64,000 bases of DNA from Fulvia fulva (lineage: Eukaryota > Ascomycota > Dothideomycetes > Mycosphaerellales > Mycosphaerellaceae), in the NCBI RefSeq assembly GCF_020509005.1, contig NC_063024.1, positions 372,001-436,000 on the forward strand, read 5' to 3'. Below are positions 26,313-62,159 of this stretch, one piece after another. Under the pieces are notes generated by a model that was given only the letters and a program-made list of their open reading frames with translations, made no database searches and was not told where the DNA came from. Within the stretch, counting starts at the first letter, position 1. Every line of letters starts with the position of its first letter. The position numbers and the translations under genes are program-made.

Positions 26313-26386
26313 GCTTTCATGGTGTAGTTGGTTATCACGTCTGTCTAACACACAGAAGGTCTTCAGTTCAAGTCTGGATGAAAGTA
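26313..26386 (+). tRNA. tRNA-Val (AAC), intronless
   Basis: The 74 nt fold fully. Acceptor GCTTTCA pairs with TGAAAGT (one G-U). The D arm stem is GTG/CAC, the anticodon stem TCTGT/ACAGA with loop CTAACAC (anticodon AAC), the variable loop AGGTC, and the T arm TTCAG/CTGGA with loop TTCAAGT. No CCA is encoded. There is no T-run within about 60 nt downstream, so the Pol III terminator is weak or further on. Confidence 0.93.
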
Positions 26387-38258: not shown

Positions 38259-38285
38259 GCGCGGTTGGTCTAGTGGTATGATTCT

Positions 38286-38340
38286 GTACGTTCAAATCAA
38301 CAGCCTCACCATCTATAACCGCGTTCTAATAGTTTCACAG
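38286..38340 (+). other. Spliceosomal-type intron inside tRNA-Pro (first)
   Basis: This 55-bp insert starts gtacgt and ends cacag, with a CTAAT branch-like site at 38,326-38,330. It lies between bases 2 and 3 of the 5' anticodon stem. Its removal restores a 5-bp stem exactly. Confidence 0.75.
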
Positions 38341-38383
38341 CGCTTAGGGCTCACCCTGAGAACGATCTGCGAGAGGTCCCCGG

Positions 38384-38469
38384 GTATGTTCCTTCCCAAC
38401 GAAACGAAGTGACTCCGATATCATGTCACCAGGAACATGACCATGAGAATAAGACTAATATAGCCTCAG
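38384..38469 (+). other. Spliceosomal-type intron inside tRNA-Pro (second)
   Basis: This 86-bp insert starts gtatgt and ends cctcag, with GACTAAT near the 3' end. It contains nested inverted repeats: ATGTTCCT (38,386-38,393) with AGGAACAT (38,431-38,438), and inside them GTGAC (38,409-38,413) with GTCAC (38,425-38,429). It separates the T stem 5' strand from the T loop. Confidence 0.75.
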
Positions 38470-38497
38470 TTCAATCCCGGGATCGCGCCCATGTTCA

Positions 38498-38502
38498 TTT
38501 TT
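38498..38502 (+). terminator. Pol III-type T-run after tRNA-Pro
   Basis: Five T residues begin 9 nt after the discriminator base, the normal RNA polymerase III stop signal. Confidence 0.6.
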
Positions 38503-56266: not shown

Positions 56267-56709
56267 TGTCATGGTCTCCCCACAGAGTGTACAGAAGGTG
56301 GGGACAGAAGAGTCTCAGAGCGCTCAGAAGTCGTCAAGAAGTGACAGTCCAGCTTGGTGTGTGAACGCCAAGAATCACATGCCCCGCAACATTCACTACG
56401 GGACCCAGCCCTCCAGATTCACCCCTCTACCAAACCTTGAAGCACGTGGAAGACTCGGATCGTAGGGCAGGTTGGAATAAGGTTTTGAGCAAAGCTGCTG
56501 AGCGCGGCTTCGCACGGGTTAGCCCTGTTGATGCGGGGACACGTACTCGCGAGGGTCGCGTATAAATATCTGGCCTTCCCCAGGCCTCTCTTGCTTTCTT
56601 CGTCTTTTGTTTTGTGTAGCAATCATACCATGCCCTTTTGCATCTGCACTTCGCACCTGCATTCTCGCTTTCACCCTTACATCTCACAGGCCAGGCTCTC
56701 GCCCTGACA
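56267..56709 (+). repeat. 5' LTR of Gypsy element
   Basis: 443 bp, matched with 61,961-62,403 by eye; the one difference I saw is C at 56,692 against T at 62,386. Confidence 0.93.
56561..56568 (+). promoter_or_regulatory. LTR TATA box
   Basis: TATAAATA lies 41 bp before GTCTTTTGT (56,602), a plausible RNA start region. The same box recurs in the 3' LTR at 62,255. Confidence 0.6.
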
Positions 56710-56711
56710 TC

Positions 56712-56720
56712 ACAAAAGAC
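56712..56720 (+). other. Candidate self-priming primer-binding site
   Basis: ACAAAAGAC begins two bases after the LTR. It is the exact reverse complement of GTCTTTTGT at 56,602-56,610 in the LTR. No TGG-type tRNA site is present, so a Tf1-like self-primer is suggested. Confidence 0.5.
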
Positions 56721-56751
56721 CAACAAACCGTCAACCACTCGAGTCATCCTC

Positions 56752-57912
56752 ATGGGTGACCACGCCACCGATAGAGGTGTCAACCTCGACAACCAAGACA
56801 CTCCATTCCACTTCAGTGAGTGGACTGACATCCCCTTCTCGAACGCCGCTGCCTTCGGTGCCTGGGCAAACGCCAACCCCGACACCGCCTACGCTCTCAT
56901 CAACCGCACCGTCTCCTCTTTCCGCGAGACCGCCCAGCAGGTCGAGCAAGCAAACAACCAAGCAACATACCTTCAAGGTATTGTGAACACCTTCCAGAAC
57001 CTCGCCCCGCACGCCGACGACAACCGCCGCCAGCACTTCTCCAAGAAGGTCAACGACCCAGACGAGTTCGACGGCAACAAGAGCAAGTTTGAGGCATTTG
57101 AGACACAGCTCACCATCAAGCTGTTGGCTAATGCCGACCACTTTCCGCAAGAGAAGGACAAAGTCACGTACGTCTTCTCCCTCCTTCGGGGAGACGCCGC
57201 GGCTCAGGTACAACACTACATCGACAACGCCACGCAGACTATCGGCTGCCCGGACGTCCTCACCTTGATGCAGGACCTCCGTGCTGCCTTTGGTGATCCA
57301 GACCGTAGAGCCACCGCCCAGAACGCCATCCACAACCTCCTCCAGAAGAACAAGAGCTTCGCCGAGTACCTCGCGGCCTTCAACCGCGACATCGGGTTCA
57401 CCGGCTACAACGAAGAGACCAAGAAGAGCACTCTCCGCCGTGGTTTGTCAGCAGAGCTTCTTCGAGCCCTCGAGGACAAGGACGTTGGTGCTATGAGCTT
57501 CCGTGAGCTCGTCGAGACCTGCCAGCGCCTCGACTCCAACATGAAACACACCGCCTCTCTCCTCGCTTCCCGTTCTCAAGGTCGTCAGCCTCGTGGTCCC
57601 GGAAGCCACTTCGCTGCTCCACTAGGCGCCGCCGCTCCTACGGCTCTCCCTCCCGTCTCTGTAGGTGACGCTATGGATCTCAGCGCTGGTGCCGCCGTCC
57701 CTCGAGTCCAGGGCCTCGTTAACGGTAAGCTTACTCCCGAAGAGAAGCTTCGCCGTCGCCAGGCCGGACTCTGCACCTACTGCGGCGGTCCAGGCCACAT
57801 CGCAGCTAACTGTCCGCAGCTCGCTGCCCGTAACGCCCGCAACCCGGTTCGCGGCGCTGTCGGCGCTATCGAGCCTGCTACTGCTGCTCCCGCTGAGCAG
57901 GAAAAAGCCTAG
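56752..57912 (+). CDS. Gypsy Gag
   Basis: ATG 56,752 is the first after the LTR; the product is 386 residues. The frame is open further upstream into the LTR but only from a TTG. A central retrotransposon gag (capsid-like) region includes FDGNKSKFEAFETQLTIKL and FAEYLAAFNRDIGFTGYNEE. The zinc knuckle near the C-terminus is CTYCGGPGHIAANC (C-x2-C-x4-H-x4-C), which binds the element RNA. It ends GAA AAA GCC TAG. It packages the RNA into virus-like particles in the cytoplasm. It overlaps the pol frame by 16 nt. Confidence 0.92.
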   Translation: MGDHATDRGVNLDNQDTPFHFSEWTDIPFSNAAAFGAWANANPDTAYALINRTVSSFRETAQQVEQANNQATYLQGIVNTFQNLAPHADDNRRQHFSKKVNDPDEFDGNKSKFEAFETQLTIKLLANADHFPQEKDKVTYVFSLLRGDAAAQVQHYIDNATQTIGCPDVLTLMQDLRAAFGDPDRRATAQNAIHNLLQKNKSFAEYLAAFNRDIGFTGYNEETKKSTLRRGLSAELLRALEDKDVGAMSFRELVETCQRLDSNMKHTASLLASRSQGRQPRGPGSHFAAPLGAAAPTALPPVSVGDAMDLSAGAAVPRVQGLVNGKLTPEEKLRRRQAGLCTYCGGPGHIAANCPQLAARNARNPVRGAVGAIEPATAAPAEQEKA

Positions 57913-60900
57913 GTCTTCCTCATCGACGCGATGAAGACCAAGAACAACGTTTACCGAAAGTGAAGAGAGGAAAGAAGTTGAGGATCAATACAGCACAGCT
58001 AGACCTGTACGACGAGACGGGCAAGGACCACGCTTGCAAACCGTTCGTCACGAATGTAAATATCGGCTCAAAGAAACTCTCTTCTTCCAATCTCACTCTC
58101 ATGGACACTGGCGCACTAGGCGAGTCTTTTATGGACTATAAACTCGCGACCTCTCTCAACCTCGAACCCCAGGAACTTAAGTACCCTCGCACCCTTGAAC
58201 TCTTTGACGGCACGGAGACTACCACTGGTAAGATTACTCATGTTGTACACACGTCAATCACCCTCGGAGGCAAGCGTATGTCGATCACCAGCTTCCTTAC
58301 GTCCCTACCGCATCAGAAGTTTATCCTCGGCCTCCCCTGGTTCAGACGACACCGACCTATCATCGACTGGACTTCCCTTACTGTCAGCTTCCCTCCAGAA
58401 GTTCCTCCGGCACCTCCGCCTTCTCCGCCGCCTCAGCGCGGTCCTGAGTATACCAAGATCTTCCAGGTGAACGCCGCTGCCTTCACCACTGCTGCTAAGC
58501 AGCCCAAAGCTCAAGTCTTCGCCGCCTCTCTCCGCGATATCGACATCGCCCTCGAGAAGCTCGACAAGAAGCGTACACCTACCGACCCTGCTACGAAGGT
58601 CCCTCCTTGGGCACACCACATCCTCCACGTATTCGATGCTAAAGCCGCAGACGAGCTGCCTCCTCATCGCCCTCACGACCACAAGATTGAGCTAGAAGAA
58701 GGTGCAGAGACACCGTTCGGACCGTTATATTCCATGTCCCGAGAAGAGCTTATCGTCCTCAAGAGATACCTCGAAGAGAACCTAAAGAAGGGGTTCATTC
58801 GAGCGAGCCGTTCCAGCGCTGGCAGTCCCGTCATGTTCGTCAAGAAGCCCGGCGGTGGTCTACGCTTCTGCGTAGACTACCGAGGCTTGAACGCTGTTAC
58901 AAAGAAGAACCGCTACCCAATACCGTTGATTCAGGAGACGCTCGAGCGCCTCTCTAAGGCCAAGTACTTCACCAAGCTCGATGTCATCGCTGCGTTCAAC
59001 AAGTTACGAATGGCAGAAGGACACGAGTATCTCACAGCCTTCCGTACTCGCTACGGGCTGTTCGAGTCGCTCGTTATGCCCTTCGGCGTTTGTAACGGGC
59101 CTAGTACCTTCCAGAACTTCATTAACGACATCCTTCAGGAGTTCCTCGATCAGTTCTGCACTGCCTACATCGACGACATCCTAGTCTACAGCGAGACCAA
59201 GGAGGAGCACCGCGAGCACGTCTGTAAGGTCCTTCAGAAGCTCGCAGACGCCGGCTTGCAGCTCGATATCGACAAGTGCGAGTTTGAGAAGACCGAAGTC
59301 AAGTTCCTTGGTTTGATCATTACCGCAGACGGCATCAAGATGGACCAAGAGAAGATCGACGCTATCGTCGAATGGGATGCTCCTACGAACGTCAAAGAGG
59401 TCCAGGGTTTCCTAGGCTTTGCCAACTTCTACCGCCGCTTCATCCACGCATTTTCGGGCGTGGTACGCCCTTTGACGAAGCTCACGCGCAAGGGTGAGAA
59501 GTTCGCCTGGACCGACGAATGCCAGGAGGCTTTTGACTTGCTCAAAGCGAAGTTTGTTGAGAACCCGCTTCTACAGCACTTCGATTTCGAACTGGAGACC
59601 CGTGTAGAGACCGACGCATCCGACGGCGTGGTGGGCGGTGTCCTGCTACAACGCCGCTCGCCTGAATCCCCCTGGTTACCTGTCGCCTTCCTCTCCAAGA
59701 AGTTGACCGCCACGGAGTGTAACTACGAGATCTACGACAAGGAGCTTCTCGCCATCGTCAAAGCTTTCGAAGAGTGGCGCCCCGAGCTCGAAGGCTCTGC
59801 TATGCCCGTCCAAGTAAGCTCCGACCATAAGAACCTCGTCTACTTTATGAAGAGCAAGCTGCTCAATCGTCGCCAGGCCCGCTGGAGCGAGTTCCTCTCC
59901 CGGTTCAACTTCGTGATCTCGTACACGCCCGGCAAGGCCAACTCGATGGCCGACGCCCTTACCCGCCGCCCTGGAGACTCTCCAGTTGATCGAAGAGGGG
60001 GCCGGCAAATCGCAGGGCAACAAGTCATCAAAGAGCACAACCTCTCTTCCGAGCTTCGAGAGTACCTATCGAACGGCCAGCCTACGCTCGCCGCTTCCTT
60101 TGCTACTCTCGTGCTCGCTCCTGCCTACCTTGACGAGAGTGACGATGAATCCGAGCCTGAAGAATACGCCTCGGACGCTGAGGACTTGAACGACGATGAA
60201 GAGGGCTCAGTAACGACCGACGGCTCATCCGAATCAGACTTTGAGGGGTTTGATAATGAGGAGCAGCCCGAAGGCATCATGGCACGAGTACGAACAGCGT
60301 ACGATGCCGACATAGACGCCCAAGAGTTAGTTCAGGCCCTTAGATCTGGCGCGAGGACATTCCCGGGCTTCTCGCTGTCCGAGTGCGAGCTCCAGGAAGG
60401 TGTCGTCTACTTCCGTAAGAAGCTTTACGTACCGCAGCCCGAAGGCTCTAATATCCGAGCTGAGATTCTTCAAATCATCCACGACTCCGCCTCTGGGGGT
60501 CACCCAGGCGTAGCCAAGACCCACAAGCTCCTCGCTAGGTATTACTGGTGGCCGCATTCCTGGAAGGACGTCCGCCGCTACGTGCTGAACTGCGCTACTT
60601 GCCGAAGAGCCAAAGCTAACCGCCACCGTCCCCACGGTCTCTTGCACCCTCTCCCGGCTCCTGATCGTCCGTGGAAGCACATCACTATGGACTTTATCAC
60701 CGATCTTCCTCACGGCAAGACCTTCAGCGGCGTGAAAGCAAAGGCCCTTCTAGTGATCGTGGACCGTCACTCCAAGGACCGGTACATGATCCCGTGCTGG
60801 AGCATGACCGCAAAGGAGACTGCTCGCTTGTTCTACGAATTCGTCTGGCGCTTTCAAGGCCTCCCGGATAGCATCACCTCTGACAGAGGCACCCAGTTCA

Positions 60901-62159
60901 TCTCGCACTTCTGGAAGCGTCTGTGTGCTATCCTAGGCATCAAGCATAACCTCTCGACCAGTTTTCAGCCACAGACCGACGGCCAGACCGAAATTACGAA
61001 CGCTATCCTCGAGCAGGTCCTTCGTTGCTTCGTCGACTACCACCAGAAGGATTGGCCTCAGCATATCCCTGCGGTAGAGTTCGCTACTCGTAACTGGGAC
61101 TCGGAGACTACTGGCTACTCTCCCTTCTATACTACGAGAGGTTACCACCCTCGTACAGGCATGGAACCAGAAGAACCTCTCCCGCCTACCGAAGACGCAA
61201 ACGAGCAAGCAGCAGACGAGTTCGCTACTATGCTCTCACAGATCCATGAGGAAGTTCACGACGAGATGGTGTACGCACAAGCAATCTACGAGGATCAAGC
61301 CAATCGTCGTCGCCAGCCAGCTCCCGACTACCAAGTAGGCGATATGGTCTACCTCAACTCCAAGAACATCAAGACAGACCGCCCCTCCAAGAAGCTGAAC
61401 TGGAAGAACCTAGGTCCTTTTGAGATCACCGAGCGTATCAGTTCACACGCCTACCGTCTAGCTCTTCCTGCGAACATAAAGATCCACGACGTCTTCCATC
61501 CCGTACGCCTTCGGCCGTCGGCTGAGGACCCATTCCCGAACCAAAACCAAGACATGCCAGGTCCTCCCGATGAAGTAGAAGTCGACGAGCCTGTTAACCT
61601 ACCTTCTGACGACTATGCCGTCCGCAAGATCCGGGGAATCCGCGTAGAGCCCAACGACGTTGAAGGACTACCGCCGATCAAGTATGAAGTCGAATGGCAA
61701 GGTTGCCCTGAGTGGGATACCTCATGGGAACCTATCCAACATATCATCTTCAATCGTCAAGCAATCGAAGAATACCACGCCCGCGCAGACGGCCCAGAAG
61801 TCAACATCGGCAGGCTCTTCGAATCTGAGCTTTTCGACGGGGCTTACCAATGGTGTATCGACCATGACATCAGGCCTAGGCCTGGTACTGAAGCTGAACA
61901 TCCTCGATATGTGGAACTACTACGGCTTCGTAGGAACTCAGCTTTGTTCGGGGGGGCTACTGTCATGGTCTCCCCACAGAGTGTACAGAAGGTGGGGACA
62001 GAAGAGTCTCAGAGCGCTCAGAAGTCGTCAAGAAGTGACAGTCCAGCTTGGTGTGTGAACGCCAAGAATCACATGCCCCGCAACATTCACTACGGGACCC
62101 AGCCCTCCAGATTCACCCCTCTACCAAACCTTGAAGCACGTGGAAGACTCGGATCGTAG
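57906..62159 (+). CDS. Gypsy Pol polyprotein with chromodomain
   Basis: The frame is open from 57,897 and lacks a near ATG, so it is probably made as a Gag-Pol fusion by -1 frameshifting. Counting residues from 57,960: protease MDTGALGES (about 48), reverse transcriptase with CVDYRGLN and catalytic YIDD (403-406), RNase H TDASDG (about 550), an integrase zinc part (HDSASGGHPG ... CATC), an integrase core with Asp in MDFITD (about 911), Asp 975 in TSDRGTQF and Glu 1011 in DGQTEITN (D-x35-E), and a chromodomain at about 1219-1278 (YEVEWQGCPEWDTSWEP). A chromodomain marks a chromovirus, which targets methylated-histone chromatin. The frame ends inside the 3' LTR. No damaging stop is seen. Confidence 0.93.
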   Translation, partial: SLGLPHRRDEDQEQRLPKVKRGKKLRINTAQLDLYDETGKDHACKPFVTNVNIGSKKLSSSNLTLMDTGALGESFMDYKLATSLNLEPQELKYPRTLELFDGTETTTGKITHVVHTSITLGGKRMSITSFLTSLPHQKFILGLPWFRRHRPIIDWTSLTVSFPPEVPPAPPPSPPPQRGPEYTKIFQVNAAAFTTAAKQPKAQVFAASLRDIDIALEKLDKKRTPTDPATKVPPWAHHILHVFDAKAADELPPHRPHDHKIELEEGAETPFGPLYSMSREELIVLKRYLEENLKKGFIRASRSSAGSPVMFVKKPGGGLRFCVDYRGLNAVTKKNRYPIPLIQETLERLSKAKYFTKLDVIAAFNKLRMAEGHEYLTAFRTRYGLFESLVMPFGVCNGPSTFQNFINDILQEFLDQFCTAYIDDILVYSETKEEHREHVCKVLQKLADAGLQLDIDKCEFEKTEVKFLGLIITADGIKMDQEKIDAIVEWDAPTNVKEVQGFLGFANFYRRFIHAFSGVVRPLTKLTRKGEKFAWTDECQEAFDLLKAKFVENPLLQHFDFELETRVETDASDGVVGGVLLQRRSPESPWLPVAFLSKKLTATECNYEIYDKELLAIVKAFEEWRPELEGSAMPVQVSSDHKNLVYFMKSKLLNRRQARWSEFLSRFNFVISYTPGKANSMADALTRRPGDSPVDRRGGRQIAGQQVIKEHNLSSELREYLSNGQPTLAASFATLVLAPAYLDESDDESEPEEYASDAEDLNDDEEGSVTTDGSSESDFEGFDNEEQPEGIMARVRTAYDADIDAQELVQALRSGARTFPGFSLSECELQEGVVYFRKKLYVPQPEGSNIRAEILQIIHDSASGGHPGVAKTHKLLARYYWWPHSWKDVRRYVLNCATCRRAKANRHRPHGLLHPLPAPDRPWKHITMDFITDLPHGKTFSGVKAKALLVIVDRHSKDRYMIPCWSMTAKETARLFYEFVWRFQGLPDSITSDRGTQFISHFWKRLCAILGIKHNLSTSFQPQTDGQTEITNAILEQVLRCFVDYHQKDWPQHIPAVEFATRNWDSETTGYSPFYTTRGYHPRTGMEPEEPLPPTEDANEQAADEFATMLSQIHEEVHDEMVYAQAIYEDQANRRRQPAPDYQVGDMVYLNSKNIKTDRPSKKLNWKNLGPFEITERISSHAYRLALPANIKIHDVFHPVRLRPSAEDPFPNQNQDMPGPPDEVEVDEPVNLPSDDYAVRKIRGIRVEPNDVEGLPPIKYEVEWQGCPEWDTSWEPIQHIIFNRQAIEEYHARADGPEVNIGRLFESELFDGAYQWCIDHDIRPRPGTEAEHPRYVELLRLRRNSALFGGATVMVSPQSVQKVGTEESQSAQKSSRSDSPAWCVNAKNHMPRNIHYGTQPSRFTPLPNLEARGRLGS

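Follow-up and report, generated by a model that had tools for sequence, protein, structure and literature searches.

Can a nuclear transfer RNA (tRNA) gene depend on the spliceosome for its expression? The introns of such genes are taught to be the job of the Sen endonuclease and a ligase, and to sit at one position. The question is raised by a tRNA-Pro(AGG) gene of Fulvia fulva, a fungus that infects tomato, located on the plus strand at positions 38259–38489 of a 64,000-nt stretch of contig NC_063024.1 (hereafter the window). Three inserts interrupt this gene, and two of them look like spliceosomal introns. A preliminary description of the locus had left two readings side by side, namely that the spliceosome processes this tRNA precursor, or that intron-like DNA has jumped into the gene and silenced it. 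In our analysis the former, which implies that the inserts are spliced in the cell, became much better supported, while the silenced gene fits the data poorly. With a probability of roughly 0.88, we regard the locus as a working, apparently single-copy gene with two U2-type introns plus its normal tRNA intron, and as an instance of something that affects the whole F. fulva genome: most of the tRNA genes found carry one to three short GT-AG introns.

The tRNA-Pro(AGG) gene and its three inserts

The locus was read directly and modeled with a clover-leaf scanner written for this analysis, which accepts GT..AG inserts of 38–140 nt at any site and one optional insert at position 37/38. Both approaches resolve it into four exons that join to a 72-nt tRNA-Pro(AGG) (Table 1), and the scanner returned the same coordinates for the three inserts as the preliminary description. 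Its assignment of the middle insert to the ordinary 37/38 tRNA intron likewise agrees with the scanner model, in which this insert lacks GT-AG ends and occupies the canonical location, unlike the outer two. These are GT-AG ended, 55 and 86 nt long, and their CTAAT motifs, previously placed 10–17 nt before the AG, both place the branch A 11 nt before the end of the intron. The 86-nt intron additionally contains an 8-bp inverted repeat (38386–38393 and 38431–38438). In the joined tRNA, the acceptor stem (with one G-T pair), anticodon stem, and T stem are free of mismatches, and three of four pairs form in the D stem; the predicted lowest-energy fold forms the three other helices, and the D arm stays unpaired. 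Neither exon decay nor stem breakage, the marks of a tRNA pseudogene, was found at this locus.

The gene scored 19.9 in the window, where the sole other model of at least 14 on either strand was a plain tRNA-Val(AAC) at 26313–26386. When the 431-nt region was dinucleotide-shuffled 1000 times, the scanner produced no model, and the top score was 16.4 in a third-order Markov control (12 × 60 kb, both strands) and 14.0 in another shuffled/Markov control. Run on the window, ARAGORN called the tRNA-Val gene and missed the tRNA-Pro(AGG) gene. An Rfam scan of the window gave no match at all; because the tRNA-Val gene was missed too, its silence on tRNA-Pro(AGG) carries little weight.

Table 1 Features of the tRNA-Pro(AGG) gene and its surroundings in the window
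Feature	Positions	Strand	Basis
Exon 1 (acceptor 5′ strand, D arm, first 2 nt of anticodon stem)	38259..38285	+	clover-leaf model
A-box-like internal promoter TGGTCTAGTGG, unsplit	38266..38276	+	sequence, consensus
Spliceosomal-type intron, 55 nt, GTACGT..CAG, tRNA position 28/29	38286..38340	+	sequence, scanner
CTAAT branch-site-like motif of first intron; branch A 38329, 11 nt from intron end	38326..38330	+	sequence, motif scan
Exon 2 (remaining anticodon stem 5′ strand and loop, anticodon AGG)	38341..38349	+	clover-leaf model
Ordinary 18-nt tRNA intron at 37/38, no GT-AG	38350..38367	+	clover-leaf model
Exon 3 (anticodon stem 3′ strand, variable loop, T stem 5′ strand)	38368..38383	+	clover-leaf model
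Spliceosomal-type intron, 86 nt, GTATGT..CAG, tRNA position 53/54	38384..38469	+	sequence, scanner
CTAAT branch-site-like motif of 86-nt intron; branch A 38458, 11 nt from intron end	38455..38459	+	sequence, motif scan
Exon 4 (T loop, T stem 3′ strand, acceptor 3′ strand, discriminator C; most of B box)	38470..38489	+	clover-leaf model
TTTTT, RNA polymerase III terminator-like, 9 nt beyond tRNA end	38498..38502	+	sequence

Spliceosomal signals in tRNA genes across the genome

Candidate loci in the genome (67,169,167 bases, 14 contigs) were gathered with sequence patterns, the Rfam tRNA model, and a joined-tRNA query, none of which requires GT-AG, and were passed to the scanner, which does require these ends genome-wide. 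From 51 distinct models, three in tRNA-like repeats (L064, L067, and L114) were removed before counting. Among the remaining 48 modeled tRNA genes, 36 contained a total of 61 GT-AG inserts away from 37/38 (one to three per gene), and 12 contained none. A full-length scan of all 135 loci yielded no additional genes. A tRNA-Trp gene with one such intron (L132), found later, stands outside the 48-gene statistics; it came from a further pattern sample (25 rows, 12 stretches examined) that also gave uncounted models in tRNA-like repeats. Scanner models in such repeats at L126, L130, L131, and L134 were left out of the counts as well. Samples matching a T arm followed by TTTTT (49, 34, and 29 rows; the first inspected entirely, the second and third in part) held at least 31 places recognized as tRNA genes, among which 24 carry GT-AG introns; the statistics leave the remaining places of these samples aside. 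The Rfam tRNA model gave 28 matches among the 63 scored of 1234 genomic candidates, which do not amount to a census; the tRNA-Pro(AGG) gene is absent from these 28.

The inserts show the features of U2-type introns: GT..AG ends, a 5′ splice site with G at +5 (57 of 61; GTACGT and GTATGT in the window), and a YTRAY branch near the AG. This branch motif, with its A 8–15 nt from the intron end, is present in 59 of 61 inserts, with a mode of 11 nt and exactly 11 nt in 33. Lengths fall between 49 and 62 nt in 60 of the 61 (median 54), the lone exception being the 86-nt intron of the window. Ordinary 37/38 introns from the same gene set served as a control and had GT..AG ends in 0/40 and a branch motif in 1/40 cases (41 introns minus that of L003, excluded since a GT-AG stretch sits inside its insert). 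In a set of 48 introns, 43 contain CTRAY; shuffles gave 11 on average and 22 at most. Of 80 boundary pairs, the 79 other than GT-AG each fit at most 10 of 29 genes (TA-GG 10; others at most 7), in a test run on genes that had been selected because GT-AG fits.

Insert sites include positions 8, 9, 10, 11, 14, 15, the D loop, 21, 22, 25, 27, 28, 30, the variable loop, 49–54, 58, 60, and 62. In our reading, the introns were gained at sites of the acceptor/D, the anticodon, or the T arm. At L003 (C7:4366151), a tRNA-Ala(CGC) gene, the 37/38 insert holds a second stretch, GTGAGT..CTGAT..TTCAG, that resembles the first GT-AG intron of the gene; apparently, a spliceosomal-type intron is nested in, or abuts, a tRNA-endonuclease intron.

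Identical exons, diverged introns, and the search for uninterrupted copies

Exons are 100% identical among four tRNA-Glu, three tRNA-Asp, five tRNA-Gly(GCC), and two tRNA-Phe copies, and among three of the four tRNA-Lys copies, while the aligned introns of the Glu, Asp, Lys, and Gly(GCC) paralogs are only 51–83% identical. Four tRNA-Glu(CTC) genes, for instance, lie on separate contigs and share identical 72-nt exons, although the identity of their introns is as low as 51–83%. The same combination of identical exons and diverged introns is found in three copies of Asp, four of Gly(GCC), and two of Lys. The flanks of dispersed paralogs with identical exons have diverged as well.

Paralogs also differ cleanly in which introns they have. 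Four tRNA-Gly(GCC) copies carry an intron at 62/63 and one does not, the mature sequence of the intron-free copy being exactly the same. The tRNA-Lys copies (intron sites {60}, {var,51}, {var,51}, and {var,51,60}, where var is the variable loop), the tRNA-Arg(ACG) copies ({9,53}, {9,53}, and {53}), and the tRNA-Phe copies ({10,30,53} and {30,53}) carry graded sets of one, two, or three introns in exons that are identical or nearly so.

For several tRNAs, every gene in this partial census has GT-AG introns: Asp (4/4), Phe (2/2), Lys(CTT) (4/4), Glu(CTC) (5/5), Arg(ACG) (3/3), and Thr(AGT) (3/3). The preliminary description had reckoned that several intact tRNA-Pro(AGG) genes elsewhere, together with unspliced transcripts, would make the window locus simply a dead copy. 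A genome-wide search for an uninterrupted tRNA-Pro(AGG) 5′ half with up to three mismatches gave four matches, all of which were inspected and none of which is a tRNA gene. The only uninterrupted tRNA-Asp anticodon arm belongs to L029, which bears a T-arm intron. A query of 26 joined mature tRNAs, which is blind to exons of 20–27 nt and did list contiguous 36–37-nt halves of other tRNAs, returned no uninterrupted half for Pro(AGG), Asp, or Glu(CTC). The corresponding search for tRNA-Phe gave two candidate matches with three mismatches versus four for the reversed control.

We read these data as functional tRNA genes that spliceosomal introns have colonized, which suggests that the spliceosome is needed to make many F. 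fulva tRNAs. We think it likely that the tRNA-Asp, Phe, Lys(CTT), Glu(CTC), Arg(ACG), and Pro(AGG) sets are encoded only by genes bearing spliceosomal introns, often with split RNA polymerase III (Pol III) boxes, that the spliceosome is required for these adaptors of translation, and that the introns spread through the tRNA set once the host spliced Pol III transcripts.

Proposed transcription and order of processing

In all 12 genes recovered by routes that applied no T filter, a run of TTTT follows within 60 nt downstream (background 0.09); TATAWA occurs upstream of 14/36 intron-bearing and 3/12 intron-free genes (background 0.04). Given these T-runs, and TATA-like upstream elements at a frequency similar to that in intron-free tRNA genes, transcription by Pol III appears likeliest. 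The predicted fold of the whole tRNA-Pro precursor differs from a clover leaf, and for that reason spliceosomal removal should precede the action of Sen, RNase P, and tRNase Z.

We infer the following sequence of events. Pol III would transcribe the whole gene from the internal boxes and upstream AT-rich elements to the T-run, after which the spliceosome would excise the GT-AG introns by means of the 5′ splice site, the CTRAY branch, and the AG. The joined RNA would then fold as a pre-tRNA, from which the Sen endonuclease and tRNA ligase would take out the 37/38 intron, with the ends trimmed by RNase P and tRNase Z.

Origin of the introns

Of 22 pairs of introns that share a gene, a single one is clearly related by copying: in the tRNA-Glu(CTC) gene L059, the D-arm and T-arm introns are nearly the same sequence, with an alignment score of 17 where the null reaches at most 8.0. 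Across all 1128 intron pairs, 11 exceed the 0.1% null threshold where about one is expected, and six of these join equivalent sites of paralogs. The first intron of the window reaches a score of 8.0 with a Glu intron, which is not above the null maximum. In a limited first-pass search of the genome, a 361-nt query with both window introns matched only itself at E ≤ 0.001; a high-copy introner-like element at the tRNA-Pro(AGG) locus was rejected on this result. The data would fit a spread through intron copying, by analogy with introner-like elements, followed by fast decay.

Weighing the alternatives

If intron-like DNA had silenced these genes, the cell would rely on other, uninterrupted tRNA genes. 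Insertions in the D or T arm of eukaryotic tRNA genes are usually regarded as pseudogene features, according to a review on tRNA introns (PMC4090602), and ARAGORN, with introns allowed, called two tRNA-Pro(agg) genes in L006. Against such dead copies stand exons that are 100% identical over dispersed paralogs with diverged introns and flanks, and the genome searches described above found no uninterrupted tRNA-Pro(AGG) or tRNA-Asp gene and, within the reach of the 26-tRNA query, no uninterrupted Glu(CTC) half. We therefore consider this explanation very improbable. A single relic or pseudogene in the window is argued against by the genome-wide pattern of inserts. The genes could also be real and spliced by the spliceosome, yet transcribed by RNA polymerase II (Pol II). 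Splicing is normally coupled to Pol II, and a fair share of the genes have introns within their internal boxes; T-run terminators (12/12) and the TATA-like elements shared with intron-free genes speak for Pol III instead, and spliced Pol III transcripts do exist, such as the U6 small nuclear RNA (snRNA) of the fission yeast Schizosaccharomyces pombe, which has an mRNA-type intron (PMC10484740). Transcription by Pol II is accordingly improbable in our view. As a further alternative, the tRNA splicing endonuclease might remove the inserts, as in archaea and some algae, and their GT-AG appearance would be incidental. Introns away from 37/38 are indeed known from archaea, nucleomorphs, and Cyanidioschyzon (PMC4090602). 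We nevertheless rejected bulge-helix-bulge-type introns, since pairing of this kind is about as frequent at the junctions of the 61 inserts as expected by chance (central 4-bp helix in 4/61 versus a null mean of 1.9; at least three pairs in 15/61 versus 14.3). The 37/38 introns, moreover, lack the GT-AG ends and branch motifs that the other inserts have, and we give this possibility very little credence.

Besides the ARAGORN calls in L006 (213–325 and 682–792, with 38–39-nt inserts at odd sites), at which the scanner finds no model and which are not uninterrupted genes either, several points weigh against working genes spliced by the spliceosome as a condition of most tRNA genes. Adding eight intron-free genes found only by Rfam or ARAGORN (Tyr, six Trp, and Pro(TGG)) changes the proportion to 36/56, and the census is partial, with Asn, His, Gln, and initiator Met among the tRNAs not found. 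Because scanner models also fit tRNA-like repeats, where scores reach up to 22.8, the score alone is no proof of a gene. As near-tied models had been decided by splice-site quality, the choice was redone with the tRNA score alone; for 29 genes this gave 46 introns, with a G at +5 in 42 and CTRAY at 8–14 nt in 40, leaving the mature sequence unchanged in 27/29 genes and the overall picture the same. The A box is split (sites 8–15) in 11/36 genes and the B box (sites 54–60) in 4/36, with further introns at the B box 5′ edge, and TFIIIC ought to be hampered by this unless the upstream elements are enough. TTTT is present in 2/61 introns versus 0.09 of random 54-mers, and with A-runs likewise scarce (4/61), this depletion is no clear Pol III signature. 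Finally, we infer the splicing of the inserts in the cell from sequence features.

Additional observations

Six nearly identical tRNA-Trp(CCA) genes (L018–L023) lie on six contigs and share their flanks over the 40–60 nt shown, as if carried by a dispersed repeat. Repeats that resemble tRNAs, with good T arms and odd or absent anticodon arms were seen at L064, L067, L114, L124–L127, L129–L131, and L134, some of them in short arrays (L114). L024 and L128 give clean clover-leaf models with the anticodons GAT and ATC, which are unusual in eukaryotic nuclear genes. Within the window, two long open reading frames at 56638–62159 resemble, by eye, Gag and Pol polyproteins from a retroelement of the Ty3/Gypsy type. 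Among matches that carry a species name, the ERG4 protein encoded in the window comes nearest to that of Pseudocercospora musae (78%), with Hortaea and Zymoseptoria also close.

Significance and comparison with known systems

If most tRNA genes need the spliceosome, tRNA supply would be coupled to splicing, and Pol III transcripts would be regular spliceosome substrates. Standard tRNA finders would undercount tRNAs in such genomes, given that ARAGORN misses the tRNA-Pro(AGG) gene, which is also absent from the 28 Rfam matches (63 of 1234 candidates scored). The paralogs, with their identical exons and intron presence or absence, would provide an unusually clean record of intron gain, in which no reading frame confuses the signal. 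Two open questions would become directly testable, namely how spliceosomal introns arise and copy themselves, and whether splicing needs a cap and Pol II.

To our knowledge, this is a known intron class in a gene class not known to host such introns, on a genome-wide scale. A search of the open-access literature, with most subscription journals and preprints outside its range, listed no paper describing nuclear tRNA genes with spliceosomal introns. The word "tRNA" is absent from the main texts of the papers on introner-like elements (PMC4457414) and on the F. fulva genome (PMC9453070), and "spliceosom" from that of the tRNA-intron review (PMC4090602).

The eukaryotic 37/38 intron is also present in most of these F. 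fulva genes as a separate insert; unlike the outer inserts, it has a single position, no GT-AG ends, and no branch motif. Non-canonical tRNA introns of archaea, cryptophyte nucleomorphs, and Cyanidioschyzon occur, as in F. fulva, at several sites, including the D and T arms, with up to three per gene (PMC4090602). According to the same review, the archaeal and Cyanidioschyzon introns go with bulge-helix-bulge motifs and the tRNA endonuclease, and those of Guillardia are 3–24 nt long, with a mechanism said to be unknown. The F. fulva inserts differ from the archaeal and Cyanidioschyzon introns in having no bulge-helix-bulge signal and full spliceosomal signals.

Introner-like elements of Dothideomycetes, including F. 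fulva, where they are thought to be still active, are spreading spliceosomal introns that soon become indistinguishable from ordinary ones (PMC4457414). They share the organism and the presumed spreading of introns with our case; unlike them, the window introns have no further match in the limited search described above, and the tRNA introns gave one clear copy within a gene (L059). Fungal nuclear ribosomal DNA offers another parallel, with mRNA-type introns in a structural RNA gene, but concerns rRNA and RNA polymerase I (known here from a reference title in PMC11782384). The F. fulva genome has a single U6 snRNA match (L089, C4:1169208–1169308), of full family-model length and without an intron. 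Other fungal U6 genes, besides that of fission yeast, also have mRNA-type introns. Like the F. fulva tRNA introns, these are spliceosomal introns in a small structural Pol III RNA; there, however, it is one intron in one gene, whereas in F. fulva 36 modeled tRNA genes carry one to three introns each.
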